A DNA stretch of 17,025 nucleotides from Gemmatimonadota bacterium. Its GTDB lineage: Bacteria; Latescibacterota; UBA2968; UBA8231. Both the position numbers and the translations under genes were made by a program. Below, one piece after another: positions 214 through 16,929 of this stretch. The notes beneath the pieces are model-generated. The model saw nothing but the letters and a program-made list of their open reading frames with translations. It did no database searches and was not told the DNA's origin. Position 1 is the stretch's first letter. The number at the start of each line of letters is the position of its first letter. The stretch is taken from assembly GCA_002712305.1 (NCBI GenBank), contig PATE01000123.1, forward strand, positions 1 to 17,025, in the 5' to 3' direction.

Positions 214-274
214 AGGATTTGCGGCGAAATAGGTTTTCGTCCACTTAGGCCGACGCTTCGAGGCCACAACCCAT

Positions 275-280
275 GAGGTG
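275..280 (+). promoter_or_regulatory. Ribosome binding site deciding the start of the DUF6807 gene
   Basis: GAGGTG lies four bases before ATG 285. An in-frame ATG at 273 overlaps this site and has no comparable purine-rich site upstream. The later ATG is therefore preferred. Confidence 0.55.
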
Positions 281-284
281 CGCA

Positions 285-1181: not shown

Positions 1182-1377
1182 GTGTCGCCAACCAGGTGGC
1201 CTCGCCTTCGTTGAAATGCCAGCCGCCTGGCTTCCCAAAAGGGCCATTGGTGTCACATTGCTAGACCACGGATACGCCCTAATGTTACCGCCACCCGGAC
1301 GTAGAACCAGAAATGAGCGAAACGACGCGCCCGTGCCACAGAGCTTCGTGGGCGGATTCAGCCAGTAGGCCAACCTC

Positions 1378-1692
1378 ATGCAAGAGCCCATCAAGACCAT
1401 CACGGTCACCCAGGCGAAGGAGAAACTGGCAGACGGACATGCCGTGTTCATCGACATCCGCGATCCTAACGCCTATGCTGCCGCCCACGTCCCAGGCGCA
1501 ATCCGTATCCACAACACGAATGTCGATGCCTTCATTGCCAGCACGGACAAGTCTATGCCGCACATCGTCTACTGCTATCATGGCATCACCAGTCAGGGCG
1601 GTGCTGCTTTCTTCCAGGAGAAGGGCTTTGAAGACGTCTACAGCATGGAGGGTGGCCTGCGCCTGGGAGGACTGACATCAGGCCATCATTGA
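1378..1692 (+). CDS. glpE: GlpE-like rhodanese (thiosulfate sulfurtransferase), single domain
   Basis: A 104-residue single rhodanese domain resembling GlpE in length and motifs. VFIDIRDPNAYAAAHVPGA lies at about residues 23-41. The active-site loop CYHGIT (Cys66) is followed by an amphipathic helix and VYSMEGG. The CYHG loop is distinctive for GlpE-type enzymes, which transfer sulfane sulfur from thiosulfate to cyanide or thioredoxin-like acceptors through a Cys persulfide. It should be cytosolic, since no signal peptide is seen. No clear ribosome binding site precedes ATG 1378. The C-terminus is odd: after MEGG the family normally has a short stretch ending in an aromatic AW, but this frame reads LRLGGLTSGHH. 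A one-base shift near 1660 would give AWED and a stop at 1675, so a frameshift close to the end is possible. The gene sits 202 bases before the mannonate-dehydratase-like gene. Confidence 0.85.
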   Translation: MQEPIKTITVTQAKEKLADGHAVFIDIRDPNAYAAAHVPGAIRIHNTNVDAFIASTDKSMPHIVYCYHGITSQGGAAFFQEKGFEDVYSMEGGLRLGGLTSGHH

Positions 1693-1883
1693 TAGCTGTG
1701 GAAGGGGCTGAGTATCTTCCCAAGCCGTCCAAGCTGACCCAAAGACCCGGGTAGTTTCGGGCTCGACCAACCAGGTGAACCACACCCAACCGGCAGGCAA
1801 TTGCCTATCTGTTATCCCGATCCCGAGGCGACACAGCCCAGGCCAGCGGGTGGCACTCATCCATGAAGCAGCAAACCGGCGTA

Positions 1884-1889
1884 AAGGGA
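1884..1889 (+). promoter_or_regulatory. Ribosome binding site deciding the start of the mannonate-dehydratase-like gene
   Basis: AAGGGA lies five bases before ATG 1895. The frame stays open upstream to a GTG at 1775, but the extra 40 residues carry no recognisable family sequence and that GTG has no comparable site. Confidence 0.55.
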
Positions 1890-1894
1890 ATCAC

Positions 1895-2956
1895 ATGAAG
1901 GAGTTCGAAGAGGGTCTGGCGGCCGGCGAGGCGGCAGCCTCTGCCTCCGAAGGAAGCTCGGGCGCATCGACGAAGGCCGGACGTATGTATGTGCGCACAC
2001 AAAGTTTCGGGTCTTCTGACGAGGATCTGCGCTTCCTGCAGCGCTGCGGTGTGCACCACAAGGCGGCCACCTTCCCATTCCATCCGGGTCGTGGGTGGGA
2101 TCTCGATGATCTGCTGCGGGAGAAGGAGCGCTTCGAACAATTCGGTATCACGCCGGACATGAGTGCGATCCCGATTTACGAGCAGTTCCCCAGCATCATC
2201 TACTACGGCAAGAGCCCGGATCGAGATCGAGACATCGACACGGTGTGCGAGATGATCCGCACCGCTTCACGGGCGGGTATCGAGTCGCTGCGTTACAACA
2301 CGTGCGTTCTAAACATCGACCGCACGGAAGACGAAGAAGGTCGAGGTGGGTTCTGGCACACCGCCTTCCGTCTGGACAAGATTTCGGCAGAGGATCAGGC
2401 CAAGCTGACCGACGCCGGTCGGGTCACGGCAGAAATGCACTGGGAGCGGATCGAGTATCTGCTCGAACGCATGATTCCGGTGGCTCAGGAGTGCAGGGTG
2501 CGGGTGGGCAACTCGCAGGAGGACCCGCCCACGCCGCCGGGCTATCGGGGCGTGGACAAGGTCCTCAACGACTTCGAGGGCATGAAGCGTTTCATCGAGA
2601 TCCAGCGGAGTCCGTATCACGGCTGGAATTTCTGCGTCGGCTCGATCGCGGAAATGCTCGAAGACTCCGCCACGGAGATCTTTCCGTTCATCGAGTATTT
2701 CGGCGGTCGCGACACGATTTTTCTCGTGCACTACCGCAATCTCATCGGGGGGCGCTACAGCTTCCGCGAGGCCTTGCCGGATGAGGGGGATATGGACTTC
2801 TGCAAGGTCTTGAGGGCACTGAAGGACGTGGGCTACTGCTACGGCATCGATCCGGATCACGTCCCTTACTGCAAGGACGATCCTCAGGGCAGCTATCAGG
2901 GCTACGCGTATTGTTTCGGCTATATCAATGCCATGATTCAGTCGGTCTATACCTAG
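1895..2956 (+). CDS. Mannonate dehydratase (UxuA)-like TIM-barrel protein
   Basis: A 353-residue relative of D-mannonate dehydratase, which removes water from D-mannonate to give 2-keto-3-deoxygluconate in glucuronate catabolism. Family landmarks appear in order: GWNFCVGS (Cys247), FLVHYRN (His279), SFREALPDEGDMDF (about 289-302), GIDPDHVP (Asp319, His322), and a C-terminal GYAYCFGYINAM. Cys247, His279 and an Asp/His of the PDH motif fit the known metal site. The block that reads IHPDDPP in classical UxuA is NSQEDPP here (206-212), so the metal-ligand His is Ser207. The Arg before PDH is also not conserved. The first 30 residues are Ala/Ser/Gly rich and probably disordered; another in-frame ATG at 1985 starts exactly where family sequence begins. 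Fold and family are confident. Activity on mannonate is doubtful because of the altered ligand. Confidence 0.85.
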   Translation: MKEFEEGLAAGEAAASASEGSSGASTKAGRMYVRTQSFGSSDEDLRFLQRCGVHHKAATFPFHPGRGWDLDDLLREKERFEQFGITPDMSAIPIYEQFPSIIYYGKSPDRDRDIDTVCEMIRTASRAGIESLRYNTCVLNIDRTEDEEGRGGFWHTAFRLDKISAEDQAKLTDAGRVTAEMHWERIEYLLERMIPVAQECRVRVGNSQEDPPTPPGYRGVDKVLNDFEGMKRFIEIQRSPYHGWNFCVGSIAEMLEDSATEIFPFIEYFGGRDTIFLVHYRNLIGGRYSFREALPDEGDMDFCKVLRALKDVGYCYGIDPDHVPYCKDDPQGSYQGYAYCFGYINAMIQSVYT

Positions 2957-3092
2957 CGGTTTGTGATGGCGACATCTGTCGCTGGAGAAGGTTGCCGTCG
3001 TTGCCGATCCGCAGGGTGCGCCTCTCTGCTTGATCACCCTCGCCATGCCTGCCGACTGATCCCGCGGAAGATCAAGACGTAATCCAAAGAAT

Positions 3093-3122
3093 GAGGCCGG
3101 TCGTCATCAGATGACCGGCCTC
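3093..3122. terminator. Strong hairpin between convergent genes, likely terminator
   Basis: GAGGCCGGTC (3093-3102) is perfectly complementary to GACCGGCCTC (3113-3122). The pairing can extend by three more pairs into the loop. It is followed by a T-rich but interrupted run (GGTTCGTTCTCTC). It lies between the end of the + strand dehydratase-like gene (2956) and the end of the - strand esterase (3154), where a terminator shared by both directions is expected. A smaller hairpin (GCGAC/GTCGC, 2969-2982) lies just after the dehydratase-like gene. Confidence 0.7.
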
Positions 3123-3153
3123 GGTTCGTTCTCTCAGATACGGCCGTGCCCTC

Positions 3154-5091
3154 TCACGCAGGCGGCGAGAGCAGCTGTTTGAGGGTGGCGCGCTTCGGTG
3201 ACGTGCGCAGACCCTTCGGAAACAACGCACGATCGGCTGGCCGCACGCCGAACAGCCGTCCCTTCCCCTTGCCCGCTAACTGCGCCAGACCCGAGATCCC
3301 ACCCGCCCCGAGCAACAGGGGGACGTAGGCGAGTTTGACCCAGGTTGTTGGCGCGCGCAGGTCAGCACCACCCAGATCGGCCACGAGACTTCCCGCCAGC
3401 TTTTCGGATTGCAGGAAAGACCACACGGCGTAGGTGAGGATGCCCATGCTTGAATCGGCAACCAAGGTGACAGTGCTGGGTTGAACGCCCAACTCGACCT
3501 GTGCCATGCGCACCGTTGTCGCCACATCATCGGCCTGGTGCATGTGCGCCGTCTTGCCATAGGTCGTGGCCAGATAGGTATCCGCTCTTCGATGGAATTC
3601 CTCGCTCGGAGCTGAGCCTTGCTGCCCGAAGAGCAGCGGAATCACCACACCCCAGCCCTCATCCATCAGTTTGCGCACAGCCGTCGAAGGTCTTCCACAG
3701 AACGCCGCCCACGCGCCCTTCCCCGCCCATTGGCGTAGCAGCACCAGTGTGCGATCCGCTTTTGTTGCGGGGGGCAGAAAGCGGGCCTGCATGCTACTGT
3801 CCTGCGAGAAACGTCCATACGTAATAGAGAACAGACCGGACCGACTGCTTCCATACTCGTGTCGTGCCGGTTGGCTGCGGATGAGAATGTCCTTCTTCTC
3901 CGGCAGCTGTGTCTGCAGCACGTCCGCCACGTCGGCCGAGCTTCCTGACTTGCCGTGCAGATCCTGCCACATGTCGAACAGTTGCTTGGGGCGACGGATG
4001 GCGCCCTTGTAGGGTGGAATCTCCTTGTCGAACACCAACAGCCGTGCACGATCGGGAACGGGCGTCGCAGCTTCAGGAATTCTCGCCGTGGGTTTGGTGC
4101 CGCCCTTCATCAGCCACTGCACCATCCACGAGTACACCGCCTCGCGGGCGCGACGATTGTAGTTATGCCCCTCGTCCTGGTAGAAGCCGTCGATCGACGC
4201 AGGCTTCTTGTACAATTCGTAGAGCTCGCGCATCGCCGGCAGTTCACGGTCACGCATATGGTGAGTCCAATCGCCTGTACATCCCAGCAGCAGCATCGGT
4301 CTGGGCGCGATGAGACCCGCATAGTGGAGATTGCTGTACTGCACATGCAATCCAGGTGCATTCTCACAGACACAACCGCCCTGCATGTGACCAGAAAGCA
4401 TCACGGCCGGTGCAGCGACCTTCACCCGCTCGTCCACAGCGGCAAGGAAGTAGGTCTGCGTACCGCCCCCTGACTCGCCGGTGCAGCCAACACGCTTTGG
4501 ATCGATCTCCTTGCGCGACAGCAGATAGTCGAGGGCCTTGATCGAGTTGTTGAGCTGCAGACCAAACAGACTCAGGCCGAGGGTGTTGGCTGCACCCTTT
4601 TCAGGACCACTGAGCAGCGATCGATGGGAGATCTGTCTCGTATCGTCGTCGTAGTCGATCATGGAATAGGCGAAGGACGCAAAACCGAGAAGGGCGCTGT
4701 TCATCGCCCTGTGTGGGACGGAGTAGTCGGCGAGAGGCGTTGTGCGTGCATTCATGGCATGACCATGAGGGTGCAGGATCAATGGCAGACGCGACGTCGC
4801 CTTCTTGGGCCGATACAGATTGCCCGTCAGATAGAGGCCCGGCAGGGTCTCGATGCACAGATTCTCGACGATGAGCCCTTCATGTTCGTAGCGATCGACC
4901 ACACGGCCGCGTGCTTTGAAAGCGGCCGTCTGTGCATTCAGACCGGCACACAGCAAGAGATGTCGACGGATCTGCTGTCGCTGCGCCTTCCAGGCGGCAA
5001 GGGTCCCCCAATCGGGAGCGGCCATGGTACTCTGATAGTTACGGAACGCGTAGAGTCTGGCGTCGGTGTCTAGCATCTGATCGGTGGCCAT
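3154..5091 (-). CDS. Acetyl-xylan-esterase-like alpha/beta hydrolase with two hydrolase-like modules
   Basis: A 645-residue protein with an N-terminal alpha/beta hydrolase domain (about 70-330). It has the oxyanion-region LILHPHGH (about 104-111), the nucleophile elbow GCTGESGGGTQ (Ser207), the acid candidate Asp274 in CTGDWTHH, and His309 in DEGHNY. This pattern is common in planctomycete-type acetyl xylan esterase and dienelactone-hydrolase-like proteins, which cleave acyl esters from sugars. The C-terminal half (about 440-620) looks like a second, weaker copy of the fold: TLVLLRQWAG, then VTLVADSSMGILTYAVW at the elbow position (541-557). The first Gly of GxSxG is replaced there and no terminal catalytic His is evident, so this half is probably structural or substrate-binding. 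No signal peptide is seen, so it is likely cytoplasmic. GAGGA (5101-5105) sits nine bases before ATG 5091. The gene stands alone on its strand. Ester hydrolase is a safe call; the substrate is unknown. Confidence 0.85.
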   Translation of the reverse strand: MATDQMLDTDARLYAFRNYQSTMAAPDWGTLAAWKAQRQQIRRHLLLCAGLNAQTAAFKARGRVVDRYEHEGLIVENLCIETLPGLYLTGNLYRPKKATSRLPLILHPHGHAMNARTTPLADYSVPHRAMNSALLGFASFAYSMIDYDDDTRQISHRSLLSGPEKGAANTLGLSLFGLQLNNSIKALDYLLSRKEIDPKRVGCTGESGGGTQTYFLAAVDERVKVAAPAVMLSGHMQGGCVCENAPGLHVQYSNLHYAGLIAPRPMLLLGCTGDWTHHMRDRELPAMRELYELYKKPASIDGFYQDEGHNYNRRAREAVYSWMVQWLMKGGTKPTARIPEAATPVPDRARLLVFDKEIPPYKGAIRRPKQLFDMWQDLHGKSGSSADVADVLQTQLPEKKDILIRSQPARHEYGSSRSGLFSITYGRFSQDSSMQARFLPPATKADRTLVLLRQWAGKGAWAAFCGRPSTAVRKLMDEGWGVVIPLLFGQQGSAPSEEFHRRADTYLATTYGKTAHMHQADDVATTVRMAQVELGVQPSTVTLVADSSMGILTYAVWSFLQSEKLAGSLVADLGGADLRAPTTWVKLAYVPLLLGAGGISGLAQLAGKGKGRLFGVRPADRALFPKGLRTSPKRATLKQLLSPPA

Positions 5092-5113
5092 GAATCACGA
5101 TCCTCGTGGCGGG

Positions 5114-5184
5114 CAGATGGCGGGGGCCATTGACAGATGGCGCGAAGCCAATGGCGGAGTGAGGCGAAGCCTATGACACAGGCT
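5114..5184. other. Cluster of short hairpins upstream of the esterase
   Basis: The 278 bases between the esterase start and the DUF2461 start contain no gene. Near the esterase is an imperfect 20-base tandem repeat: units begin CAGATGGCG at 5114 and 5134. Four short inverted repeats also occur: ATGGC/GCCAT (5117-5130), TGGC/GCCA (5138-5150), AGGC-GAA-GCCT (5162-5172) and AGCCT/AGGCT (5168-5184). The last two are mutually exclusive. Transcripts of the esterase starting further upstream would carry them in the leader. Function is unknown; they may be chance structure in GC-rich DNA. Confidence 0.35.
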
Positions 5185-5369
5185 CCGTGGACGCCACCAC
5201 TGCCAGAAAAGAGTTGCACGGGGTGTATGGGTCCAGCAGATTCGCCCCCGAGAGCACCCTGACAAGGATCGTCTACCGAAGATCGGCAGACCCGTCACCC
5301 TGAACCTGCAAACCGCATACCTCATACCGCATGTTCGGAGCAGAGAAACCATCCTGGAGTCGACAACCC

Positions 5370-6065
5370 ATGGCGACGCACAATCCCTATATCACGCCCA
5401 AACTCTTCAAGTTCTTTTGCGACCTGAAGAAGAACAACGACCGGGAGTGGTTTGAAGCGAACAAACAGCGTTATGAGGACGATGTCCGTACACCACTGTT
5501 GGCGTTCATCGATGATTTCGCCGAACCCCTGTACAAGATCAGCCCCCACTTCCGGGCCGATGCACGCAAGGTCGGTGGATCCTTGTTTCGCATCTTTCGT
5601 GACGTGCGTTTCTCGAAGGACAAGTCGCCGTACAAGACGCAGGCCGGGGTGCACTTCCGACACGAGAATGCGAAGGACGCCCATGCCCCCGGCTTCTATC
5701 TGCACCTGGAACCGGGAGAGGTGTTTCTCGGCGCAGGCATCTGGCATCCAGAGACAGCCGTCGCACGACAGATCCGGGCGGCGATCCTCGAGCATCCCGA
5801 TCGCTGGAAGAAGGCGATGAAGAGTGCCGCTTTCACGAAATACGGATACAGCCTGGCCGGTGAGTCGCTGAAACGTCCACCGGCGGGGGTTGAGAAGGAT
5901 CACCCCCTCCTGGATGACCTCAAACGAAAGGACTTCATCGCCGTGGCCGAACGGACAGAGAAGGATGCCTGTGCACCCGGATTTCCGAAGTTCTTTGCCG
6001 AGCGCTGCAAGTCGACGTCCGCCTTCGTCAAATTCTTATCTGAAGCGGTGGAGCAGCCCTTTTGA
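5370..6065 (+). CDS. DUF2461 (TIGR02453) family protein
   Basis: A 231-residue member of the DUF2461 family (PF09365), recognised by LFKFFCDLKKNNDREWFEAN at residues 12-31 and the very characteristic FRIFRDVRFSKDKSPYKT at 73-90. GFYLHLEPGEVFLGAGIWHP follows at about 107-126, where the family also has a conserved aromatic/Gly strand. The length matches the family (about 220-230). The biochemical role is not established; the family is widespread and soluble. ATG 5370 is preferred over an in-frame ATG at 5331 because GGAG lies at 5356-5359 and the family's N-terminal helix begins right after it. The stop codon overlaps the TTG start of the following propeller gene, implying translational coupling. 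Confidence 0.9.
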   Translation: MATHNPYITPKLFKFFCDLKKNNDREWFEANKQRYEDDVRTPLLAFIDDFAEPLYKISPHFRADARKVGGSLFRIFRDVRFSKDKSPYKTQAGVHFRHENAKDAHAPGFYLHLEPGEVFLGAGIWHPETAVARQIRAAILEHPDRWKKAMKSAAFTKYGYSLAGESLKRPPAGVEKDHPLLDDLKRKDFIAVAERTEKDACAPGFPKFFAERCKSTSAFVKFLSEAVEQPF

Positions 6066-7369
6066 TCACAGGTATCACCAGGGGTCCCGTCGATCTGGTG
6101 ACACCTCCCGACGGGGACAACTTTCGGTATGGTCTGGGTTTCCCTATGCAGATCGGGCCGCGGCAGGCGGCGCTGCTGTGCAATCTGCGCACCGAGCAGA
6201 TGCCCACCGGAGATTTCGAGAACGGCGCAGATGTGCTGCTCTTCGACGACATCGGTGAGATCTCAGAGACCGTCGCTGTGCCGATCACCCGCAATGAACG
6301 AACCACCCATCCCGAGACCGATTCACCACGCATCATCGTCAAGTATCCCATCGTGGGTGGCTTTGTCCCCTACGGGGCGCGCCGCGCCGACGGCCAGGTC
6401 CACCCTTGTGCGGGAACGGGGTTCGGTGTCAGTGAGGCGCTCGACTTTCCCATGCTGCCAGATGGTTCCTACAGCAAGGCGGACAAGACAAAGAGCATGG
6501 TTCGTCGAGCCGTTGTGCATCAGCTCACCTTCGATGGCAGAGCCTTCACGGCCCACGAAGATCGTGCCGACGATGACCTGCTCGCCGTGCCGGAATCCGA
6601 CTGGATCGTCTACGTCAACGGCCTGCACACGGCGATTCCCGATGGCGACGACCTGCTCTATCCGGCGTGCGCCACAACGGGGGATGCGTCTCTGTGTTGG
6701 CCGACACCGACGGCGGCGGGGGTCTGCCGTTGGCAGTTCAGAGAGGACCGCTGGAAGTTGAGCCACTTCGAACCCGTAGCGATGAGTCGGCAAGCCGATG
6801 AACCGCGGATTCTGTACGATGAACCCATCGAACTGGCGGCGGCTGAACCTAGCCTGGTTCGCGACCACGATGGCTCCCTGCTCTTCACGGCACGCATGTG
6901 TGGCGACGATGAAGAAGATCATGTGATCCGCGTGTGGCGCTCGAGTGATGGCGGCAGATCCTGGTCAACCGTCATCGAACAATCACAGGCTCGCGGTCAG
7001 GCGCCGATCACCATCAATCGGGCGTCAGACGGCACGGTCTATCTGGCCGCCAATGCCCTCGGCCGCGAACGGGATCTGCTGTGGCTGTGGCCTCTGAATG
7101 AGCAGCGAACGGGGCTGCTGGAAGGGATGGAGATTCGCGACGCCCTCGAAGAATTCGGGCCACCACCGACAGGACCCGTGTGGTTCATGGATCATCCCAC
7201 AGCAGTCACCCTGCGGCTGGGTGATGGGCAGTGGCACCATATACTGGTCTGTCGATTGATGGATCGCGGCGAACACGCAGGCGCTGCGCCGCCGCCCCAG
7301 ACGGGGATGTATGTGGAGGAAGTGACCTCGTCGGGACCGGCGATCCCGGAGTGGCACTTCGAGGATTAG
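6062..7369 (+). CDS. Sialidase-like (BNR/Asp-box) beta-propeller protein
   Basis: A 435-residue protein with one clear Asp box, SSDGGRSW at residues 294-301. It is preceded by EPSLVRDHDGSLLFTAR (262-278), the usual strand pattern leading into an Asp box in sialidase-like six-bladed propellers. Further strand-like segments follow (PITINRASDGTVYLAAN; HPTAVTLRLGDGQWHHILV). Sialidases usually have several Asp boxes and a catalytic Arg triad with a Tyr/Glu pair. I cannot place those, so glycosidase activity is only a possibility. There is no signal peptide. The start is uncertain: TTG 6062 overlaps the upstream stop (TTGA arrangement), and the next in-frame Met is residue 29, inside the apparently conserved RYGLGFPMQIGPRQ segment, so the early start is kept. 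It converges on the aldo/keto reductase with only 19 bases between the stop codons. Confidence 0.65.
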   Translation: MITGITRGPVDLVTPPDGDNFRYGLGFPMQIGPRQAALLCNLRTEQMPTGDFENGADVLLFDDIGEISETVAVPITRNERTTHPETDSPRIIVKYPIVGGFVPYGARRADGQVHPCAGTGFGVSEALDFPMLPDGSYSKADKTKSMVRRAVVHQLTFDGRAFTAHEDRADDDLLAVPESDWIVYVNGLHTAIPDGDDLLYPACATTGDASLCWPTPTAAGVCRWQFREDRWKLSHFEPVAMSRQADEPRILYDEPIELAAAEPSLVRDHDGSLLFTARMCGDDEEDHVIRVWRSSDGGRSWSTVIEQSQARGQAPITINRASDGTVYLAANALGRERDLLWLWPLNEQRTGLLEGMEIRDALEEFGPPPTGPVWFMDHPTAVTLRLGDGQWHHILVCRLMDRGEHAGAAPPPQTGMYVEEVTSSGPAIPEWHFED

Positions 7370-7388
7370 GTCATCGCCCTTCGCAGGC

Positions 7389-8273
7389 TCACGGCATCTC
7401 GGGCTGTGGCTGCCCCACCAGGGACAGGGCCATCTCCAGCTCATCGACACTGGCCACCGCCACCAGGGCCGTATCCACGTTCTGATTCTTCAGCACCCAC
7501 GCCACAGCAGGCCCCGTTTGGGCCACCTCTTCACCCGGCTGGGCGAGATCCTTCCAGGGACCGGCGCTGAAGGAATACACCAGATCGATCTCGTGCCGCA
7601 TGCTCTCGCCCAGCGGCGACAGTTGCATCAGGGCTTCCTGATCTGCGGCTGACCAATCCGTCGTGTTCTTGTGAATCCAACTCAGATACTGCCCACCGAG
7701 GGCCTTCATGATCAACACGCCCTTGCCCTGCTCGGCGGCCCTCGCGATGCCCGGTTCCTGGCCTCGACAGACGTAGTTGTAGATCACCAGATCGGCATCG
7801 GCGTCGGGTTCAGGTCCGTCACCGAGATAGGCCTGCTGATCGGCTTCGAAGTGACGGATCGTGCACAACGCTCGGACCTTGCCCGCACCCTTCAGGTCTT
7901 CGACTCGCCGACGTAGCGCGTCGTCGCCCACGTAGGCGTAGTGGTGCACGCGGAGGATATCGATCGCATCCCGTTTCACATTGGCCAGGTGTTTGTCGAC
8001 CGTTCCCTCGAGATCATCCGCCGTGGGAGCCCCTACCTTCAGCGAGAAATGACGCTCGTCGCTCGGCCCCTTCAACTCGTCGGGGATGTGGACTTCATCG
8101 CCGTAGCCCATGTCGAAGAGGTTGATGCCCAACTCTTCGGCGCGCAGATAGATCCGCCGTTTTTCTGTGGGAGGTGGATGCGCCGTTTCACCTTCCCAGT
8201 AGTGGGCGAGCAGACCTCCCAGCCCGACCACACTCAGACGCATTCCCGTTCGACCAAATTCCCGATACTCCAT
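7389..8273 (-). CDS. Aldo/keto reductase family oxidoreductase
   Basis: A 294-residue NAD(P)H-dependent aldo/keto reductase. The N-terminus EFGRTGMRLSVVGLGG (4-20) is the family's opening hairpin and first strand. The catalytic tetrad can be read off as Asp54 and Tyr57 (FDMGYG), Lys79 (FSLKV) and a His at 110-111 (DILRVHH). GKVRALCTIRHF and GVLIMKALGG match later barrel strands, and AWVLKNQNVDTALV is the C-terminal cofactor-side segment. The family reduces aldehydes or ketones of sugars and other carbonyls. ATG 8273 is chosen because AGGA lies six bases upstream (8280-8283); an earlier in-frame start at 8315 would overlap the upstream VOC gene and add 14 unrelated residues. It is the last gene of the PPOX-PhyH-VOC-reductase run, 17 bases after the VOC gene. 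Confidence 0.9.
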   Translation of the reverse strand: MEYREFGRTGMRLSVVGLGGLLAHYWEGETAHPPPTEKRRIYLRAEELGINLFDMGYGDEVHIPDELKGPSDERHFSLKVGAPTADDLEGTVDKHLANVKRDAIDILRVHHYAYVGDDALRRRVEDLKGAGKVRALCTIRHFEADQQAYLGDGPEPDADADLVIYNYVCRGQEPGIARAAEQGKGVLIMKALGGQYLSWIHKNTTDWSAADQEALMQLSPLGESMRHEIDLVYSFSAGPWKDLAQPGEEVAQTGPAVAWVLKNQNVDTALVAVASVDELEMALSLVGQPQPEMP

Positions 8274-8290
8274 GACTGTTCCTGTCTCTC

Positions 8291-8704
8291 TTACGCCATC
8301 TGCACGCCAGGCCACTGCTCGTCGCTGGCTGTGATGTCCACGGTGATCCCATCCGGATCCTCCACCTTGAAGGCCCCCTCTTCGATGTTGGTCACATCCA
8401 CAGGGATCTTGCCCGCCAATCCATCGGAGAAAATCTCGTATCCCATGTCGAGCAGCCGTGCGGCAGTGCCTTCGAGATCACGCACACGTACGCCGATGTG
8501 CAAATAGTCGAGCATGCCGCTCACGTGAGGCGGACGTGCCGGGCCCTCGTGTTGAAAGACACGAAAGTTGTGGTGTCCGTCGCTCAGGTCGAAGCTCTTC
8601 TCGCGTTCGACGACGACGGGAATGCCAAGGCCATCCCGCCAGAAGCGGATGGTCTTCTCCAGATCGGTGGCGCGGACGCCGACGTGGACGAGGGTTGTGG
8701 ACAC
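8291..8704 (-). CDS. VOC superfamily (glyoxalase/dioxygenase fold) protein
   Basis: A 137-residue protein with the two beta-alpha-beta-beta-beta modules of the vicinal oxygen chelate fold. Module 1 starts TLVHVGVRATDLEKTIRFW (4-22) and module 2 DYLHIGVRVRDLEGT (66-80), followed by GAFKVEDPDGITVDI (110-124). Candidate metal ligands are His7, His69 and an acidic residue in the DPDG-ITVDI strand (Asp123, where Glu is usual). Members include glyoxalase I, methylmalonyl-CoA epimerase and ring-cleaving dioxygenases; the sequence does not pick one. The start is GTG 8704, because AAGGAG lies five bases upstream and the fold begins immediately; the longer frame from 8758 would overlap the PhyH stop. 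It sits 50 bases after the PhyH gene and 17 before the reductase, so it is probably co-transcribed. Confidence 0.88.
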   Translation of the reverse strand: MSTTLVHVGVRATDLEKTIRFWRDGLGIPVVVEREKSFDLSDGHHNFRVFQHEGPARPPHVSGMLDYLHIGVRVRDLEGTAARLLDMGYEIFSDGLAGKIPVDVTNIEEGAFKVEDPDGITVDITASDEQWPGVQMA

Positions 8705-8709
8705 GGGGG

Positions 8710-8715
8710 CTCCTT
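8710..8715 (-). promoter_or_regulatory. Ribosome binding site deciding the GTG start of the VOC gene
   Basis: On the - strand AAGGAG is spaced five bases from GTG 8704. It is one of the best Shine-Dalgarno matches in the window and supports a non-ATG start. Confidence 0.65.
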
Positions 8716-8754
8716 CTTCGAATGAGATGGCAGCGACAGGGTCGTAGTTTTGAG

Positions 8755-9513
8755 TCAATCTGTCGGTTCAGGGTGACGGCGAACACGTCCATCAAAGGCG
8801 TGGCGTGTCCAGGATCGATGGGGCCAGTCGTCGAATCCGTAGGGGATATAGTGGTTGGCCAGGACGTGGCGATCGGACCCTTCCTGGAGAATGGGTCCTC
8901 CCCGGTGCACGAGCACACCATCGAAGAAAACGACACTGCCTTTGCTCACCTGCACAGGCACCTCGAGAAGCGCATTGCGTTTCGCCTGTTCATCGACGGC
9001 ATCGTTGTACTCCCAGCCTTCGAATTCGCCCCCTTCCTGAAAGTCGGCTTGTGTCAGGAGCCGATTCTTGTGCGAGCCGGGCTGAACGAAAATGGTGCCA
9101 TTGTTCTCGTCCACATCCATGAAGGCGAGCCAGGCTGAAATGCAGGCGGGCAGATAGTATTGGTCCTGGTGACGGCGCTGTTCCGATCCCTCCCAGAAAT
9201 ACATCGTCTGAATGCCCTCTGCCTCATCGCCGCCGAGACAATCCCGCAGGGGCGCCTGCAGTTGTGGCAGCAGGAGATACTCCAGGGCGAGGAAATCATA
9301 AGTATGCTGATTGTGGGTGCGCCCCCGTTCGCCGATCGTGCGAGGCGCAAAACCGTCGAGTTCCTTGCTACCGTCGAGCAAGGCGACCATGTGATCCACG
9401 AAACGATCACACTCGGCGTCAGACATCAGATTCTCGACGATGACGAATCCCTGTTCGTCATACGCAGCCTGTTGCTGCGGGGTCAGACCATTGGTCACAG
9501 GTTGGACATCCAT
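8755..9513 (-). CDS. Phytanoyl-CoA dioxygenase (PhyH) family Fe(II)/2-oxoglutarate oxygenase
   Basis: A 252-residue complete PhyH-family protein. LTPQQQAAYDEQGFVIVENLMS (10-31) is the typical N-terminal helix and strand. The iron triad is visible: His115 and Asp117 in RRHQDQYY, and His203 in LVHRGG. Arg215 in GSDRHVLANHY is the likely 2-oxoglutarate-binding residue. Other core strands are SAWLAFMDVDENNGTIFVQPGSH (126-148) and GSVVFFDG (192-199). The family hydroxylates or otherwise oxidises small molecules using O2 and 2-oxoglutarate, so an aerobic reaction is implied. ATG 9513 is preferred on family alignment, although no strong ribosome binding site precedes it; a TTG at 9576 would add 21 residues. 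It lies 72 bases after the PPOX gene and upstream of the VOC gene on the same strand. Confidence 0.9.
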   Translation of the reverse strand: MDVQPVTNGLTPQQQAAYDEQGFVIVENLMSDAECDRFVDHMVALLDGSKELDGFAPRTIGERGRTHNQHTYDFLALEYLLLPQLQAPLRDCLGGDEAEGIQTMYFWEGSEQRRHQDQYYLPACISAWLAFMDVDENNGTIFVQPGSHKNRLLTQADFQEGGEFEGWEYNDAVDEQAKRNALLEVPVQVSKGSVVFFDGVLVHRGGPILQEGSDRHVLANHYIPYGFDDWPHRSWTRHAFDGRVRRHPEPTD

Positions 9514-9585
9514 GTCGAAATGGGTAGGTAGCTGGAAACTGTCGCGGCACAAGATAGGCAGCCGCGCGAGCTGCAAACACCGGGC

Positions 9586-10137: not shown

Positions 10138-10314
10138 TCCGGGCTCCTAGTCTGATGCGGAGGCTCACGATATGCGGCGCCCAGGCGCTCATGACAGGGC
10201 GATGTAATTGAGATATGGTTGTGCCCAGACGAATGCAAGGGTGAGTGCAAGAGCGAGCAGGTCGCCAAAGCCAATTGATTGCGCACCGAAAGACACTCCG
10301 AGAGGGAAATCTCC
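10138..10314. promoter_or_regulatory. Divergent intergenic region between PPOX and Gfo/Idh/MocA genes
   Basis: This stretch separates two genes that start outward from it, so it should contain both promoters. I do not see a convincing sigma-70 pair. On the - strand an open frame (GTG 10296 to TGA ending at 10189) encodes a 35-residue peptide with a hydrophobic segment of about 17 residues, described under findings. GAGGGA (10302-10307) is the ribosome binding site for ATG 10315. Confidence 0.45.
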
Positions 10315-11571
10315 ATGAGCAGCGATGATCTGATACGGGTGGGCGTGATCGGCGTGGGCCGTGGGCGCTCCTTCGCCACGGGAGCCTCCACGTCCCTGGG
10401 CATGAAACTGGTCGCCGTGTGTGATCAGTGGGAAGAGAAACTCACCGAGGCGGGCGAAGAGTTCGGTGTGGCCACCTACACCGACTACGACGAATTCCTT
10501 CAACACGACATGGATGCCGTCATCCTCGCCAACTACTTCCACGAACACTCCCCCTTCGCGATCAAGGCACTGCGAGCGGGGAAACACGTGATGAGTGAGA
10601 CCGCCGCCAACACGACACTGGCCCAGGGGGTTGAACTGTGTCGCACCGTGGAAGAAACAGGTCTCACCTACATGTTCGCCGAAAACTATCCGTATACGGT
10701 GTTCAATCAGGAGATGCGGCGCGTCTATCAGACCGGCGAGATCGGCTCAGTCACGTATGCCGAGGGCGAATACAACCACCCCATGTCACCGGAGGCTCGC
10801 CTGCGCATCTCACCTGGCCGCAAACACTGGCGGGCGTGGATTCCATCCACCTACTACTGCACCCATGCCCTAGCGCCGCTCATGTACATCACCGACACCA
10901 TGCCTGTTCGGGTCAATGCCCTCTCCATCGCCTGCGAATCCATCGAGAATGAAGTGGCCGCTGTCGGCGATCCGGGATCCGTGATCCTGTGCCGGATGGA
11001 CAATGGCGCCGTCTTTCGGCTCTTCGGACTCATCCTTCCGGGACATAGCTGCTGGTATCGTGTTCACGGCCAGACGGGCGCCATGGAAATCACAAGGGGC
11101 GGCGGCTACTTTGGCCCGGGGCAGGTGCGCGTGTGGCACGAAGACTGGAACATGCCCGACGGAGTTGAGGCCGAGCGCGTGTATGACCCCCAATGGCCAG
11201 AGCATGGGGATCTGGCCGAGAAGGCAGGTCACGGCGGCGGCGATTTCTGGACCCCCTTTCACTTTGCCCAGGCCATTCGTTCCGGCAAACCTCCCTTTCT
11301 CGATGTCTATCGGGGTGTCGCCATGTCGAGTGTGGGCATCGTCGCATGGCGCAGCGCTCTTGAGGAAGGAGCCCCCCTCGACATGCCAGACTTCCGCGAC
11401 GAGGCGAATCGCAGCGCCTACGAGGCCGACCACTGGTCGCCCTGGCCGCAGGATGCCGGACCGGATCAGCCGCCCCCCAGCATTCGTGGATTACGTGAAC
11501 CCCATCCCGAGGGGCTGGCCAGAGGCCGCAAGATCTGGAAAGAGATGGGGTACTCCGGGGAAGACATGTAA
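10315..11571 (+). CDS. Gfo/Idh/MocA family oxidoreductase
   Basis: A 418-residue NAD(P)-dependent sugar-type oxidoreductase. The Rossmann start RVGVIGVGRGRSF (8-20) and LVAVCDQWEEK (32-42) fit the dinucleotide fold, and DAVILANYFHEHSPFAIKALRAGKHV (67-92) leads to the spot where the family has EKP. Here it reads SETAANTT (94-101), so the catalytic Lys is replaced by Thr96. MFAENYPYTVF (120-130) and the His of STYYCTHALAPLM (His184) match the catalytic-side segments of a known variant subgroup. The C-terminal domain carries the usual open beta-sheet strands. Typical substrates are sugars, inositols or their acids. ATG 10315 is chosen over a TTG at 10279 because of the ribosome binding site. There is no signal peptide, so it is cytosolic. 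It is followed by a convergent propeller gene. Confidence 0.9.
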   Translation: MSSDDLIRVGVIGVGRGRSFATGASTSLGMKLVAVCDQWEEKLTEAGEEFGVATYTDYDEFLQHDMDAVILANYFHEHSPFAIKALRAGKHVMSETAANTTLAQGVELCRTVEETGLTYMFAENYPYTVFNQEMRRVYQTGEIGSVTYAEGEYNHPMSPEARLRISPGRKHWRAWIPSTYYCTHALAPLMYITDTMPVRVNALSIACESIENEVAAVGDPGSVILCRMDNGAVFRLFGLILPGHSCWYRVHGQTGAMEITRGGGYFGPGQVRVWHEDWNMPDGVEAERVYDPQWPEHGDLAEKAGHGGGDFWTPFHFAQAIRSGKPPFLDVYRGVAMSSVGIVAWRSALEEGAPLDMPDFRDEANRSAYEADHWSPWPQDAGPDQPPPSIRGLREPHPEGLARGRKIWKEMGYSGEDM

Positions 11572-11655: not shown

Positions 11656-14382
11656 CTACGCCTTCAGAATTGAAATCTGCCCCTGATGAGCGCAGGCGAT
11701 TTCGCCGAGTCCATCCCCGTCGAAATCGCCGATCACCGCCCACCCCAGCGGCACTGGTGACGTCCAGCGTATCTCGCCATGACCTGACGCGTCGGTGCCG
11801 ATACACCAACGATCGACGAGGAACTCTCCCTTGCCGTCACCATCGACATCGGCACTGATCACGGGGCCGCTGGGCGCACTCGGCAATTCCACGCTCCACT
11901 TCGTCATTCCCGTCCAGATGTCTCGACAGAGAAACTCGGTGCTGTTGCGCAGGGCGTATCCCACCTCCAGTGTGCCATCGCCATCCACGTCGACGAAACC
12001 CACGCGGTCGGGTGTATCGTATCCGACGTCCTCGTGCCACAAGCCTTGCACCGGGTCGGTCCCCACGACACCAAAACGCCCATGCCCGTGGTGGACGAGC
12101 CAATGCGGACGATCGTCAGACACGCTTCTGTAGACGGGAGTGAATCCGTTGTACAGAGAGATCGCCGGTACCGCCTCGGGTTCGGGTCGCACATTGGGAC
12201 CACCAAACAGGGCCGCAAACTCACCATCCCCCCGCAGAAAGGCCATATAGCTGTACATGTCCCAGGCGATCTCTTCGGCCCCATCGCCGTCCCAGTCGAA
12301 AGCGCCGGGAATACCCACGGGCCGATAGGCGCGGATGTGATTCTCGTCGTGGAAGGTGCCTCGAAACCAGTGGACACGGCCATCGGCACCCGCGAGAAGA
12401 TACGTGCCTTCCTGCACGCGCCGATGGCTGTAGATGCTGATGGCCACTGCCGCTCGTGCACTGTCACCATCGAGCAGAAAGTGTCCAGCATTCCAGGCGA
12501 TCGCCTTGCCTTGGTCATCGGTGCGGGCCTTGGGCAGGGTCACCTCCCATAGATCGGTTCCGTCTGCACGCAGCGCTCGAACGGTCAGTTCACCCGTTGC
12601 CGACGCACCGGGGATCACTAACTCGAGCTGCCCATCGCCATCGAGATCGAAGAGGAGTGGACTGTACCGAGCGCTCTCGCCGAGAAAGGGTTCGTCCAGC
12701 ATCGGGACAGACGGTCTCGGGGCGGCCGACTCCTCTCGTGGCTCAGAGGCTGCTGGTACAGTGCCCGACAGATCCCACGCACGGATCCGGTGGCCGGGAA
12801 CGTGAGCCAGCAATTGGGTACGGCCCTCCGTCCCCCAGGCGGCGGCACTGAGCGTCGCGGGGGCTCCCCCCTCCAGATCGAGTGGTGTCGCAGCCGGATC
12901 GGACGAACCGAAGAGACCGAGGGCATTGACGATTCGCAGCGAACCACCCTCGTCGATACAGGCACCGAAGGGGGCTGCCAGTGCCGGCCCGGCTTCGAAC
13001 CGGTCGACTACGTCAGCACCATCCCAACGGACGATGACCGGGCGCGATTTCTCTACGACCCGCAGAAAGAGATGAACACCCGCATCAGGCCCGTCGGCCT
13101 TTGGACCAGCCCGTCGACCCGATGGTTGATCGAGCTTAGTCGGCACTGATCCCCAGGGCCCCGCGTGGTCGAACTCGTGAAGAACATGGACGCTACCGTC
13201 ACGCAGACTCACCACCTGAAGGGGTCCCTGCTCGGTTGTCGCCCCCTCCGGAGCCGGGTGCACGAGCAGCACCGTCTGCCAGGCCGTGCCGATGCCACTC
13301 GTCATGGCGGAGCACCACTGGTCGGCCAGTTCGTACTTCACCACTCCCGTGGCGACGTCTCGTGCACGCACGAAGGAGCGATAGTCGTTCTCCGGGTCAC
13401 GGACATTGTAGACTACCTCGTCGATCCCATCGCCATCCACATCGTCGACACCGAGGTATTCAACAGCCACACCGGGAACGACATAGACCTCGCCGTAGTA
13501 ACGATCCCAGGCCAATTCGGGCGTGCCATCCGGATGTAGATGTAAGCCGTGAACGTGGGTCTGTACCATCTCGGAGACCACGGCGATGGCGCGTTGATTC
13601 GGCGAACCGGTCGCAATACGCCAGGGGCCGTAGTTGCGCCGAAAGGCCCCCTCCAACTCATACTGCACACAACCCATCGACGCACCCGTGGCGGCATCGA
13701 AACTCTGACAGCGGTGATGGCGAACATTCCACAGGAGCGGCGATTCGAGGCTCATATCGAAGGCGACATCACATCCGTGATCGGCACGCACAGGCCACAC
13801 GTCATTGGCGATCACCTGCCGACGCCACACCTCCCGCACCTCACCATCGGCCTCGAACGACAGAAGCCGGCCCGCTTCGCCGTACTGTTCGACCGCTGCC
13901 ACCTGCAGCCCGTCGACGCCCGGCAGGACCTTTCCGACACAAAGGCGCAGATCCACATGGGGCGGGTCGTAGACCTGCTGCCAGCGGATGTCGCCTGTAC
14001 CACCGTCGACCACCCAGAGCCGATTCGCCCGTCGCAGCAGACCCACCTTGCTGCCGTCAGCAAACAGATCACCCCAGAACACGAGCTTGCCGGAGATAGG
14101 CGCCCTCCAGTGCGGACGGCCGTCCGTTCCGTACAGGGTGATACGCCCATCGTCGACGAGGAAGGCGGGGCCGGTGGTGGTCTCCACGGCCTCGACCCAG
14201 TGATAGACGCCCGGAATGTCGATGGACTGCCAGACATCAGGCGCCTCCGTCATCCCCAGAACGAGGGGTGAAAACCCTGTGAGTTGCTTGTCGTGGAGTG
14301 TTCGGGGCCAGTCCGGGCAGTTGATCTCGGCTGAACGGATGCCCGGCATGAGGGGGTGGGTCGAGGCCGGCGACGAGTCCAT
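11656..14382 (-). CDS. Large FG-GAP/VCBS-repeat beta-propeller protein without signal peptide
   Basis: A 908-residue protein with six calcium-type DxDGDG loops, at about 314, 579, 696, 798, 845 and 886, each flanked by strands as in FG-GAP/VCBS integrin-like propellers. Between about 60 and 160 there are also PQQ-like blades (GTDGRPHWRAPI, VDGGTGDIRWQ). Two propellers, about 60-540 and 570-908, are a reasonable reading. Such proteins usually bind Ca2+ and ligands and are normally exported. Here the N-terminus (MDSSPASTHPLMPG) is not a signal peptide, and no membrane anchor is present. ATG 14382 is used; GTG 14388 is an alternative two codons upstream. It is the last gene after the sulfatase, with a 16-base gap, so the two are probably made together. 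Its role may be carbohydrate binding or scaffolding, which is inference. No catalytic motif is recognised. Confidence 0.75.
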   Translation of the reverse strand: MDSSPASTHPLMPGIRSAEINCPDWPRTLHDKQLTGFSPLVLGMTEAPDVWQSIDIPGVYHWVEAVETTTGPAFLVDDGRITLYGTDGRPHWRAPISGKLVFWGDLFADGSKVGLLRRANRLWVVDGGTGDIRWQQVYDPPHVDLRLCVGKVLPGVDGLQVAAVEQYGEAGRLLSFEADGEVREVWRRQVIANDVWPVRADHGCDVAFDMSLESPLLWNVRHHRCQSFDAATGASMGCVQYELEGAFRRNYGPWRIATGSPNQRAIAVVSEMVQTHVHGLHLHPDGTPELAWDRYYGEVYVVPGVAVEYLGVDDVDGDGIDEVVYNVRDPENDYRSFVRARDVATGVVKYELADQWCSAMTSGIGTAWQTVLLVHPAPEGATTEQGPLQVVSLRDGSVHVLHEFDHAGPWGSVPTKLDQPSGRRAGPKADGPDAGVHLFLRVVEKSRPVIVRWDGADVVDRFEAGPALAAPFGACIDEGGSLRIVNALGLFGSSDPAATPLDLEGGAPATLSAAAWGTEGRTQLLAHVPGHRIRAWDLSGTVPAASEPREESAAPRPSVPMLDEPFLGESARYSPLLFDLDGDGQLELVIPGASATGELTVRALRADGTDLWEVTLPKARTDDQGKAIAWNAGHFLLDGDSARAAVAISIYSHRRVQEGTYLLAGADGRVHWFRGTFHDENHIRAYRPVGIPGAFDWDGDGAEEIAWDMYSYMAFLRGDGEFAALFGGPNVRPEPEAVPAISLYNGFTPVYRSVSDDRPHWLVHHGHGRFGVVGTDPVQGLWHEDVGYDTPDRVGFVDVDGDGTLEVGYALRNSTEFLCRDIWTGMTKWSVELPSAPSGPVISADVDGDGKGEFLVDRWCIGTDASGHGEIRWTSPVPLGWAVIGDFDGDGLGEIACAHQGQISILKA

Positions 14383-14398
14383 CAGCACTTTCCGAGGC

Positions 14399-15913
14399 TT
14401 ACACGCCGGGCAGGGGCGCCGTGTCGCCCACCTGTGCCTGCCAGAGCCGCAGTCGCGCCGCCATCCAACGAATGCGATCCTGGTGCCCGGGGCGACCGAA
14501 GAGATTCGTCATCTCCAGCGGATCGGTGTTCAAGTCAAACAGCTCACCCTGATCTGCAGCACACAATGTCATCTTCCATCGATCCGCCGTGACCACGCTG
14601 CGCCACGGTGCCGTCTTCAGCAGGTTGATCTGATGCACCTGTTCCGGCGGCATGGTGGTGGAGCTGGCCGCGGAAGTCAGATCACGATCACCGATCCCAT
14701 TGTGCTGGATAAACACATCATTTCCGGCCAGATCCTCGTGACCGCGCAGCACAGTGGCGCGACTCGTGCCAGGAAGCTCATCGGGGGGACGCTGACCGAG
14801 CATCTCCAACAAGGTGGGCACGAAGTCGATCTGACTGAAGTTGCCCTCGATGCGCCGCTGAGTCTGACCCAGCCACGGAGCCCGGATCAACAAGGGCACA
14901 CGCGCCGAATCCTCATAGGGTGAACGCATCTCCACGTGGCCGTGGGTACCCACCATCTCGCCATGATCGGAGGTGAACACGACGATCGTGTTGTTGCGAA
15001 CGCCCGCGTCTTCGATGGCACTCAGGATATTGCCCACCATGCCATCCACCAGCGATACACACCCGTAGTAGTTGGATCGCATTTGACGAAAGCCGGCCTC
15101 CGTCGCCAGATCGAAGTGCGGGCCTGCGGCACGACGGCCGTGGTGCGTGTCGCCCCCATACTGCGACTGCATCCAGAAGTCGGCGCGAACCCGATTGAAG
15201 AGCGAATGCCCCTCCGGGAATCGCCGGAAGTTCTCCTCCACCGGCAGCGATTCGGGGTCGTAAAGATCGTTGAAGGGGCTCGTGAAGGGCGGATGGGGCT
15301 CCTTCGAACTGGCGAAAAGGACGAAGGGTTGCTGCGCATTGCGCTCGATGAAACCCGCCGCCTGTTGGCCGATCCAGGTGGCCATATGGTATTCGAGGGG
15401 CAACTGCGACCTGAAACGTTCCGAGAAATACTTCCCTGCCGGATGGGGTGCATCAGGCTCGAAACCGTGGCTCACGAGCCACTGGTGATAGGGCGAGAAT
15501 CGCTGGCTGTAACTCTCGTCAGTGTATTCGTGCCACCAGTGGTCGAAACAAGGCAGCCACTCGTCGAACCCGTGCTGCGCCACCACTTCGTCACCCAGAT
15601 GCCACTTGCCCACGTATCCTGTGTGGTATCCCTCCGGCAACATCTCGGCAATCGTCGGCAGATCGGCGGGCAGGATGTGTCGATTGACGGGCATTCCCGC
15701 ATCGATGGGATACTGACCGCACATGATCGACGCACGCGCCGGACAACAGACGGGCTGCGTCACGTAGCAGTTGTCGAAGACGAGACTCTCGTCGGCCAAC
15801 CGATTCAGATGGGGAACCTGAATCCAGTCGTTGCCGTAGCAGGCCATAGTATCCCGACGTTGCCGGTCGGGCAGGATAAAGATGAGATTGGGACGTTCCG
15901 GTGGTTCGATCAT
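14399..15913 (-). CDS. Type I sulfatase (formylglycine-dependent), apparently cytoplasmic
   Basis: A 504-residue alkaline-phosphatase-fold sulfatase. The formylglycine motif CxPxR is intact as CCPARAS, with Cys56 the residue to be modified, followed by IMCGQYP. Other active-site landmarks: PNLIFILPDRQRRDTMACYG (8-27) with metal-binding Asp16, GYVGKWHLGD with Lys103 and His105, KEPHPPF with His207, and FTSDHGEMVGTHG with Asp316 and His317. Usual enzymes have adjacent Asp residues at the first site; PDRQ here resembles the PDQQ variant. It cleaves sulfate (less often phosphate or phosphonate) esters; carbohydrate sulfates are likely from the context. No signal peptide precedes the first strand. 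The start overlaps nothing but uses GAGGG (15920-15924), which lies over the upstream gene's TGA, nine bases away. No formylglycine-generating enzyme is in the window. Confidence 0.93.
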   Translation of the reverse strand: MIEPPERPNLIFILPDRQRRDTMACYGNDWIQVPHLNRLADESLVFDNCYVTQPVCCPARASIMCGQYPIDAGMPVNRHILPADLPTIAEMLPEGYHTGYVGKWHLGDEVVAQHGFDEWLPCFDHWWHEYTDESYSQRFSPYHQWLVSHGFEPDAPHPAGKYFSERFRSQLPLEYHMATWIGQQAAGFIERNAQQPFVLFASSKEPHPPFTSPFNDLYDPESLPVEENFRRFPEGHSLFNRVRADFWMQSQYGGDTHHGRRAAGPHFDLATEAGFRQMRSNYYGCVSLVDGMVGNILSAIEDAGVRNNTIVVFTSDHGEMVGTHGHVEMRSPYEDSARVPLLIRAPWLGQTQRRIEGNFSQIDFVPTLLEMLGQRPPDELPGTSRATVLRGHEDLAGNDVFIQHNGIGDRDLTSAASSTTMPPEQVHQINLLKTAPWRSVVTADRWKMTLCAADQGELFDLNTDPLEMTNLFGRPGHQDRIRWMAARLRLWQAQVGDTAPLPGV

Positions 15914-15922
15914 GAATCGCCC

Positions 15923-16768
15923 TCAGCTCCAGCCCCAGGTGCCGGCCACTTCGTTTGTCTGCCGTGCGAGATCTTCGAGGCTCTCCCCGTGCCGAGGGAC
16001 GATCACCTCGAAGGTCTGAGCCGCTTCGTATCCGACGTCGTCAAAGGCTTCTCGAATCTGATCCCAATTCAAGCCACCGTGCCCAGGCACCCAGTGGTTG
16101 TCCTGTGGATTCTCACCATCCACATCCTGAAGGTGGGTCCCCCACAATCGTGATCCGGCCATACGAATTTCGTCGGCGGGGTCATCACCACTCGTCCATG
16201 CGTGTCCCGTGTCGACCACGAGTCCCACGGCATCTTCGGGGTAGGGATCGATGAGTGGCCGAAGTTCGGCCATGTTGAGAAAGGGGTATCCGCAGTTGTA
16301 GGGCAGATTCTCCAGCAGCATGCGCACACCTGCATCCTGAGCGACAGGGATCAGTTCATCGAGAGAGCGCCGTGTGGCATCGCGCATGATCTGGGACAAC
16401 TCCGGTCGCTCAGGGTCGGTGACGAACATCGGATTCGGAACTGGATGAATGACCATGCCCTTCGCACCGATGTCGGCCGTGAAGCGAAGGTAGTCGGACA
16501 TGACCTTCATCTTCTCCGCGCGCCAGGTCTCGTCGGGTGCGCCCAGCACGTTCTCGCGCATGGGCGCATGCACCGTCGCCGCACCGACACCGGAATCCCG
16601 CAGCATCGACCGGAACTGATCCAACTCGCTCCCCATGAGTGGATCTGACGCGTGCGGTGCCTGGCTTGATATCTCGGCCTGTGGAAATCCCGCTGTGGCG
16701 ATCGCCGCCAACGCAGATGCCAGGTCGCGATCGATAAACCCCTGTGTGCTGTAGCTGATCCGTGTCAT
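15923..16768 (-). CDS. Sugar phosphate isomerase/epimerase-like TIM barrel (xylose isomerase-like, PF01261)
   Basis: A 281-residue TIM barrel. The four carboxylate/imidazole ligands of the xylose-isomerase-like metal site can be placed: Glu153 in RMLLENLP, Asp186 (with His189) in LVVDTGHAW, His212 in WGTHLQDVDG, and Glu254 in AQTFEVIVP. HAPM (67-70) and VIHPVPNP (106-113) mark other strand ends. Relatives are ketose epimerases, inosose dehydratases and endonuclease IV-like proteins; the sequence alone does not separate them. ATG 16768 starts directly at the first strand (MTRISYSTQGF); a TTG two codons earlier is possible. It is the first gene of the operon with the sulfatase, with a nine-base gap, suggesting they act on one sugar. 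No signal peptide is seen. Confidence 0.9.
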   Translation of the reverse strand: MTRISYSTQGFIDRDLASALAAIATAGFPQAEISSQAPHASDPLMGSELDQFRSMLRDSGVGAATVHAPMRENVLGAPDETWRAEKMKVMSDYLRFTADIGAKGMVIHPVPNPMFVTDPERPELSQIMRDATRRSLDELIPVAQDAGVRMLLENLPYNCGYPFLNMAELRPLIDPYPEDAVGLVVDTGHAWTSGDDPADEIRMAGSRLWGTHLQDVDGENPQDNHWVPGHGGLNWDQIREAFDDVGYEAAQTFEVIVPRHGESLEDLARQTNEVAGTWGWS

Positions 16769-16929
16769 GTCCAATCACCGTGTTCTTACTGGAAGGTGTG
16801 GGCTTTGCTGAATCATTGCCTGGATTCTTGATCACTCGGTGTGCCCTCGCACAAGGTGACCTCTGTGATGGCTTCTGGCCAGATGCTATGTTACACCCCA
16901 CCGCTACAGACGCCCAAACCCGAACGCTT
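16769..16929. promoter_or_regulatory. Divergent promoter region with a small dyad
   Basis: This region separates the isomerase-sulfatase-propeller operon from the divergent gene at the right edge, so it must hold both promoters. A dyad is centred near 16846: TGTGC (16840-16844), CCTC, GCACA (16849-16853). It is flanked by TCAC (16832-16835) and GTGA (16856-16859), giving an operator-like symmetry with unequal spacers. No clear -35/-10 pair was found. Confidence 0.35.

Follow-up and report, generated by a model that had tools for sequence, protein, structure and literature searches.

The 17,025 nt contig PATE01000123.1 (the window, which is an entire contig of the 4.77-Mb draft genome G000; recorded as a Gemmatimonadota bacterium, a phylum label that may be outdated, and placed by GTDB in Latescibacterota) carries on its minus strand three adjacent genes that encode, in transcriptional order, a xylose-isomerase-like TIM barrel, a homologue of the formylglycine-type sulfatases, and a PQQ-like/FG-GAP propeller protein. 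The sulfatase is not canonical: two of its active-site positions are replaced across the whole clade of its orthologues, and the novelty of the locus lies in this clade, not in the missing signal peptides that a first-pass annotation of the same DNA had singled out. With slightly less than even confidence, the three genes are read here as a cytoplasmic set of sugar-catabolic genes that belongs to a single genus within an uncultured, sulfatase-rich lineage and includes a remodelled formylglycine hydrolase.

The sulfatase gene (14399..15913, minus strand; 504 aa, with no signal peptide by the rule given below) belongs to Pfam Sulfatase (PF00884; E=1.8e-52, 179 bits against a cut-off of 25), and its matches to the NCBIfam arylsulfatase and choline-sulfatase models fall far under their cut-offs. 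The phylum survey covered 64 genomes, among which G001 is the sole congener (1/1 compared); the eight orthologues are the window protein and seven others (G001, G002, G010, G015, G022, G044 and G046; 58-85% identity), and their clade has a support of 1.0. Most of the catalytic machinery is conserved in them. In particular, the CCPAR motif for formylglycine maturation (CxPxR; 15734..15748, minus strand, residues 56-60) keeps C56 and R60 in all eight, the TSDHG (calcium-binding 2, SD[NHQ]G), GKWH (GK..H) and EPHPP (P..H) motifs are invariant, and the Arg, Lys, His, His and Asp/His active-site positions are unchanged in 8/8, together with the formylglycine motif. Genome G000 has 10 matches to domains of the formylglycine-generating enzyme (FGE) type, which could mature the protein. 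Several sulfatase paralogues in G016, G018, G022 and G010 (46% identity; for example, G018:C1:1661239-1662669) contain one in-frame stop each (TAA, TAG or TGA).

The two exceptions are Arg17 (codon 15863..15865, minus strand), at the site of the second metal-binding Asp (Asp14 of Pseudomonas arylsulfatase, PAS), and Met329 (codon 14927..14929, minus strand), at the site of the sulfate-binding lysine (Lys337 of phosphonate monoester hydrolase, PMH; Lys375 of PAS). Position 17 is Arg in 8/8 orthologues, Gln in all 22 of the nearest paralogues (44-53% identity, aligned without gaps) and Asp in other families, so that the calcium-binding 1 pattern, an Asp followed by Asp or Gln, reads Asp16-Arg17 throughout the clade. 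Position 329 is Met in 8/8 orthologues, where a canonical active site has lysine, and Lys in 22/22 paralogues. In G000 the motif could be located in 41 of the 45 sulfatase frames, and the window protein alone has the DR pair; a pattern search for the Arg motif across 386 genomes returned exactly the eight orthologue genomes. The placement of Met329 follows from its spacing as well: it sits 13 residues past the Asp of SDHG, the same distance that separates Asp324 from Lys337 in PMH, and Lys337 is tabulated as the counterpart of PAS Lys375 (PMC4014121). Two aligned PDB relatives have Glu or Asp at the first site and Lys at the second. A survey of S1 sulfatases describes the first metal site as [DE]-[DQ], with the Asp14 site variable (consensus [DQ], 76% Asp), and finds Lys375 conserved in 96% of 4058 sulfatases (PMC5066984). 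The first-pass description of an intact CxPxR sulfatase is thus half right; the formylglycine motif is intact, but Arg17 and Met329 replace two active-site residues.

Overall, the window clade shares its fold and the CxPxR, GKWH, PH and SDHG motifs with S1 formylglycine sulfatases (9ihk, S1_30; 5g2v, an N-acetylglucosamine-6-sulfatase; choline-sulfatase; PMH), and it differs from them in two fixed changes: the second metal position, Asp or Gln in the others, is Arg, and the sulfate-binding Lys is replaced by Met. In sulfamidase (SGSH, an N-sulfatase), Arg282 at the lysine site forms a salt bridge with Asp32 at the Asp14 site (PMC4014121), and the two replaced positions are therefore taken to be spatial neighbours. 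By this analogy, the simplest reading seems to be that a positive charge has moved between the two sites; Asp/Gln to Arg17 and Lys to Met329 would together shift the sulfate-contacting cation to the other side of the pocket. Arg330, which adjoins Met329, could also contribute to the pocket's charge, though it is common to many paralogues and is no specific replacement. SGSH resembles the window clade in missing the O-sulfatase lysine while the rest of its active site is standard; in contrast, SGSH keeps both metal-binding Asp residues and has Arg at the lysine site, whereas in the window clade the Asp site is occupied by Arg and the lysine site by Met.

The remodelled protein probably still cleaves a small, imported substrate that is sulfated or otherwise esterified; given the altered pocket, an ordinary sulfate ester is not to be assumed. 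A tentative and still doubtful extension of this reading is that the clade forms a formylglycine-hydrolase subfamily with a relocated cation (an Arg at a metal-ligand position replacing the universal lysine), whose metal may be changed or missing and whose bond specificity may be new, in a lineage that keeps nearly all of its sulfatases cytoplasmic. A competing explanation, conceivable though rather unlikely, is that the protein is no longer an O-sulfatase at all: it would then be a pseudoenzyme binding a sulfated ligand, or else hydrolyse another bond (sulfamate, phosphate or phosphonate). Two of about 10 core positions, in the metal site and at the sulfate-binding lysine, have been replaced and fixed, the lysine in question is functionally important besides being so widely conserved (PMC5066984), and the Arg of SGSH at the same position is a precedent for changed specificity (PMC4014121). 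Yet a pseudoenzyme would not have to conserve the formylglycine cysteine and all the remaining catalytic positions, as 8/8 orthologues do, and the gene is under strong purifying selection. Fold and CxPxR are enough for annotation pipelines to name such proteins sulfatases; with the formylglycine motif retained but a metal ligand and the sulfate-binding lysine exchanged, a conserved clade of this kind would be a case of the fold changing its chemistry.

All three proteins look cytoplasmic from their N-termini. Signals were sought by a hydropathy rule rather than by SignalP (10 uncharged residues close to any potential start, with a mean hydropathy of 2.0 or more), and the rule and the upstream codons agree with the first-pass annotation that none of the three has a visible signal peptide. 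A hidden upstream start that would restore one is ruled out in each frame: the TIM barrel frame has no open codon upstream and hence no space for a signal, the sulfatase frame has only three, too few for one, and the 40 open codons upstream of the propeller contain no hydrophobic core. The rule detects ordinary signals in the same genome, where 9 of the 15 FG-GAP_3 proteins that could be assessed have one (a further match fell within a repeat, and a contig end truncated one frame). The absence of signals had been presented as unusual for this operon, and that claim did not survive the comparison with other sulfatases. Only 1/45 sulfatase frames of G000 passes the rule, with a lipoprotein-like N-terminus; because the other 44 lack a signal too, its absence does not mark the operon out. 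Among five relatives, 2/46 sulfatases passed, one of them falsely, and inspection by eye added two Tat-like N-termini and one lipoprotein N-terminus that the rule had overlooked. Judged from these N-termini, signal-less sulfatases are a lineage-wide trait and not peculiar to this operon.

Cytoplasmic members of the S1 sulfatases are known, namely the choline-sulfatases. That almost none of these ~45 sulfatases has a signal suggests that the lineage takes up sulfated molecules and removes their sulfate internally. In this it differs from other sulfatase-rich marine bacteria, for which mainly exported sulfatases have been reported. For example, the Kiritimatiellales strains F1 and F21 likewise have a large sulfatase set of which part is predicted to be cytoplasmic, but most of theirs bear signals (354 and 339; PMC6388578), as against almost none in the window lineage. 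It is very improbable that the three proteins are instead exported without a classical signal, which would make the intracellular reading wrong. The location test is rule-based and such export would be invisible in the sequence; against it, the signals on 9/15 FG-GAP proteins indicate that this bacterium does use the ordinary export pathway, and sulfatases lack signals throughout the genome.

The TIM barrel gene (15923..16768, minus strand; 281 aa, ATG start) encodes what is probably an isomerase or epimerase acting on a sugar or polyol. It matches Pfam AP_endonuc_2 (PF01261, E=1.2e-33) and, in the PDB, MJ1311 (3wqo, E=1e-14). Its best NCBIfam matches are ketose 3-epimerases, the top one scoring 52.8 bits against a cut-off of 300. 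It shares the fold and the four metal residues with these xylose-isomerase-like barrels, and it differs in falling under every NCBIfam equivalog cut-off. The complete metal site noted at first pass was borne out, the Glu-Asp-His-Glu set being invariant in 4/4 orthologues (besides G000, only G001, G002 and G012 have one). An isomerase- or epimerase-type barrel beside a sulfatase fits the catabolism of an imported sulfated sugar, in which desulfation and isomerisation would both take place inside the cell. This route, as first proposed, stands in part: the cytoplasmic look of the proteins, their probable co-transcription and the type of barrel speak for it, and a conserved trio and a standard sulfatase are among the parts that fell away.

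The propeller gene (11656..14382, minus strand) encodes 908 aa from its ATG or 910 aa from a GTG at 14388. It matches Pfam FG-GAP_3 (E=2.2e-11, 44.6 bits against a cut-off of 26.9), PQQ_2 (E=1.7e-6) and FG-GAP, and all six of the DxDGDG loops reported earlier were located (11710..13443, minus strand; starts at 13443, 12648, 12297, 11991, 11850 and 11727). Moreover, residues 186-345 (13348..13827, minus strand) form a conserved polar block, a candidate active or binding site, with the motifs DHGCD, WNVRHHRC, RRNYGPW, VQTHVH, YYGExYVVPGV and YNVRDP; the block is nearly identical between the window protein and a class-level homologue of 43% overall identity. A scaffold would not have to conserve this many His, Arg, Tyr and Cys residues, and the sequence suggests a catalytic or ligand-binding protein more than a scaffold, and nothing was found in favour of the scaffold role that had been offered for it. 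In the cytoplasm it would use its own polar site to bind or convert sulfated compounds of the same class as the sulfatase substrate.

The DxDGDG loops and PQQ-like blades are shared with FG-GAP/PQQ-like propellers (PF13517, PF13360), including those of PL11 lyases and the propeller domain of the lambda-carrageenase family GH150 (PF25292), and the G046 homologue of the window propeller passes the PF25292 cut-off. In contrast, the window protein scores 9.1 bits against a PF25292 cut-off of 26.8, has no PL11 match (RGL11_C is unmatched) and lacks a signal peptide. Membership of GH150 or PL11 was ruled out, the weak profile matches being confined to the DxDGDG loops. Searches of plasmids and of the PDB with the propeller sequence gave no match. 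The AlphaFold2 model has a pLDDT of 37.0 overall and 42.5 for the N-terminal part, with only residues ~73-190 reaching 50-85, and was built from only 4 sequences.

The propeller is single-copy in G000 and has homologues in G001, G002, G005, G009 and G046, giving 6/64 genomes of the phylum. In 5/6 of them it lies within 2.6 kb of a sulfatase, across three lineages and three non-orthologous sulfatase subfamilies. In G000 and G001 it is downstream of the Arg/Met sulfatase; in G005 it diverges from a different sulfatase (L018:1-1796); in G009 it diverges from the same sulfatase as in G005, of which only a 50-residue fragment was matched (L016:2462-2644); and in G046 another sulfatase is found 1.2 kb downstream. 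These genomes hold 45-80 sulfatases each, which puts the probability of finding one within 2.6 kb by chance at ~6-9% per genome; three independent adjacencies are suggestive of an association. Further, the Arg/Met sulfatase is present in 4/6 of the propeller-bearing genomes (hypergeometric 0.0015), and the propeller also co-occurs with the TIM barrel (0.0018), relatedness being ignored in both values.

As a trio, the genes are linked solely within the genus, in G000 and G001, and the expectation of a conserved trio was not borne out: in other genomes the genes lie apart. Those of G002 occupy three separate contigs, and the sulfatase orthologues of G010, G015, G022, G044 and G046 (73-78% identity) have neither partner gene adjacent. 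Such scatter, with the sulfatase alone in five genomes and the TIM barrel in G012, would be expected if the three genes were ordinary neighbours that share a transcript by chance and take part in no joint pathway. This explanation is judged unlikely: only short gaps separate the genes in G000 and in G001, where two of them even overlap by 4 bases, the propeller is near sulfatases in three lineages, and its co-occurrence with both partners has the low values given above.

Several observations weigh against reading the genes as a sugar-catabolic unit with a working hydrolase. Inheritance alone may explain the linkage, since the trio is limited to one genus and its whole neighbourhood is syntenic; in G001 the synteny with the window runs from DUF2461 onward. 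The chance estimate loses weight because sulfatases lie in clusters with catabolic genes in any case, and the sulfatase beside the G009 propeller may be broken in that low-coverage draft. The loss of the lysine could mean that sulfatase activity has been lost. Lastly, the window has no transporter or kinase gene that would hint at a sugar.

Transcription along the minus strand passes through a gap of 9 bases between the TIM barrel and the sulfatase (15914..15922) and one of 16 bases between the sulfatase and the ATG of the propeller (14383..14398; 10 bases if the GTG at 14388 is used), so that the three genes and both gaps were re-derived as first annotated. A TTG at 16774, ahead of the TIM barrel's ATG, comes straight after a stop. 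Because the gaps are short and the TIM barrel stop and sulfatase start share a 4-base overlap at the corresponding junction of G001, the three genes are probably co-transcribed. Against G001, dN is 0.22 for the TIM barrel, 0.09 for the sulfatase and 0.21 for the propeller, with dS at ~1.7-2.0, and dN/dS is roughly 0.05-0.12 across the three genes (~0.05 for the sulfatase), a rough estimate as dS is near saturation. By these low ratios all three frames are real genes under purifying selection. Promoter and terminator scans found none, with fewer matches than in shuffled sequences, and an Rfam search of the window gave no match. The remainder of the window holds, at 273-9576, many DUF6807, UxuA-like, AXE1-like esterase, PhyH and glyoxalase genes, and a Gfo/Idh/MocA gene (10279-11571) lies convergent to the propeller gene.

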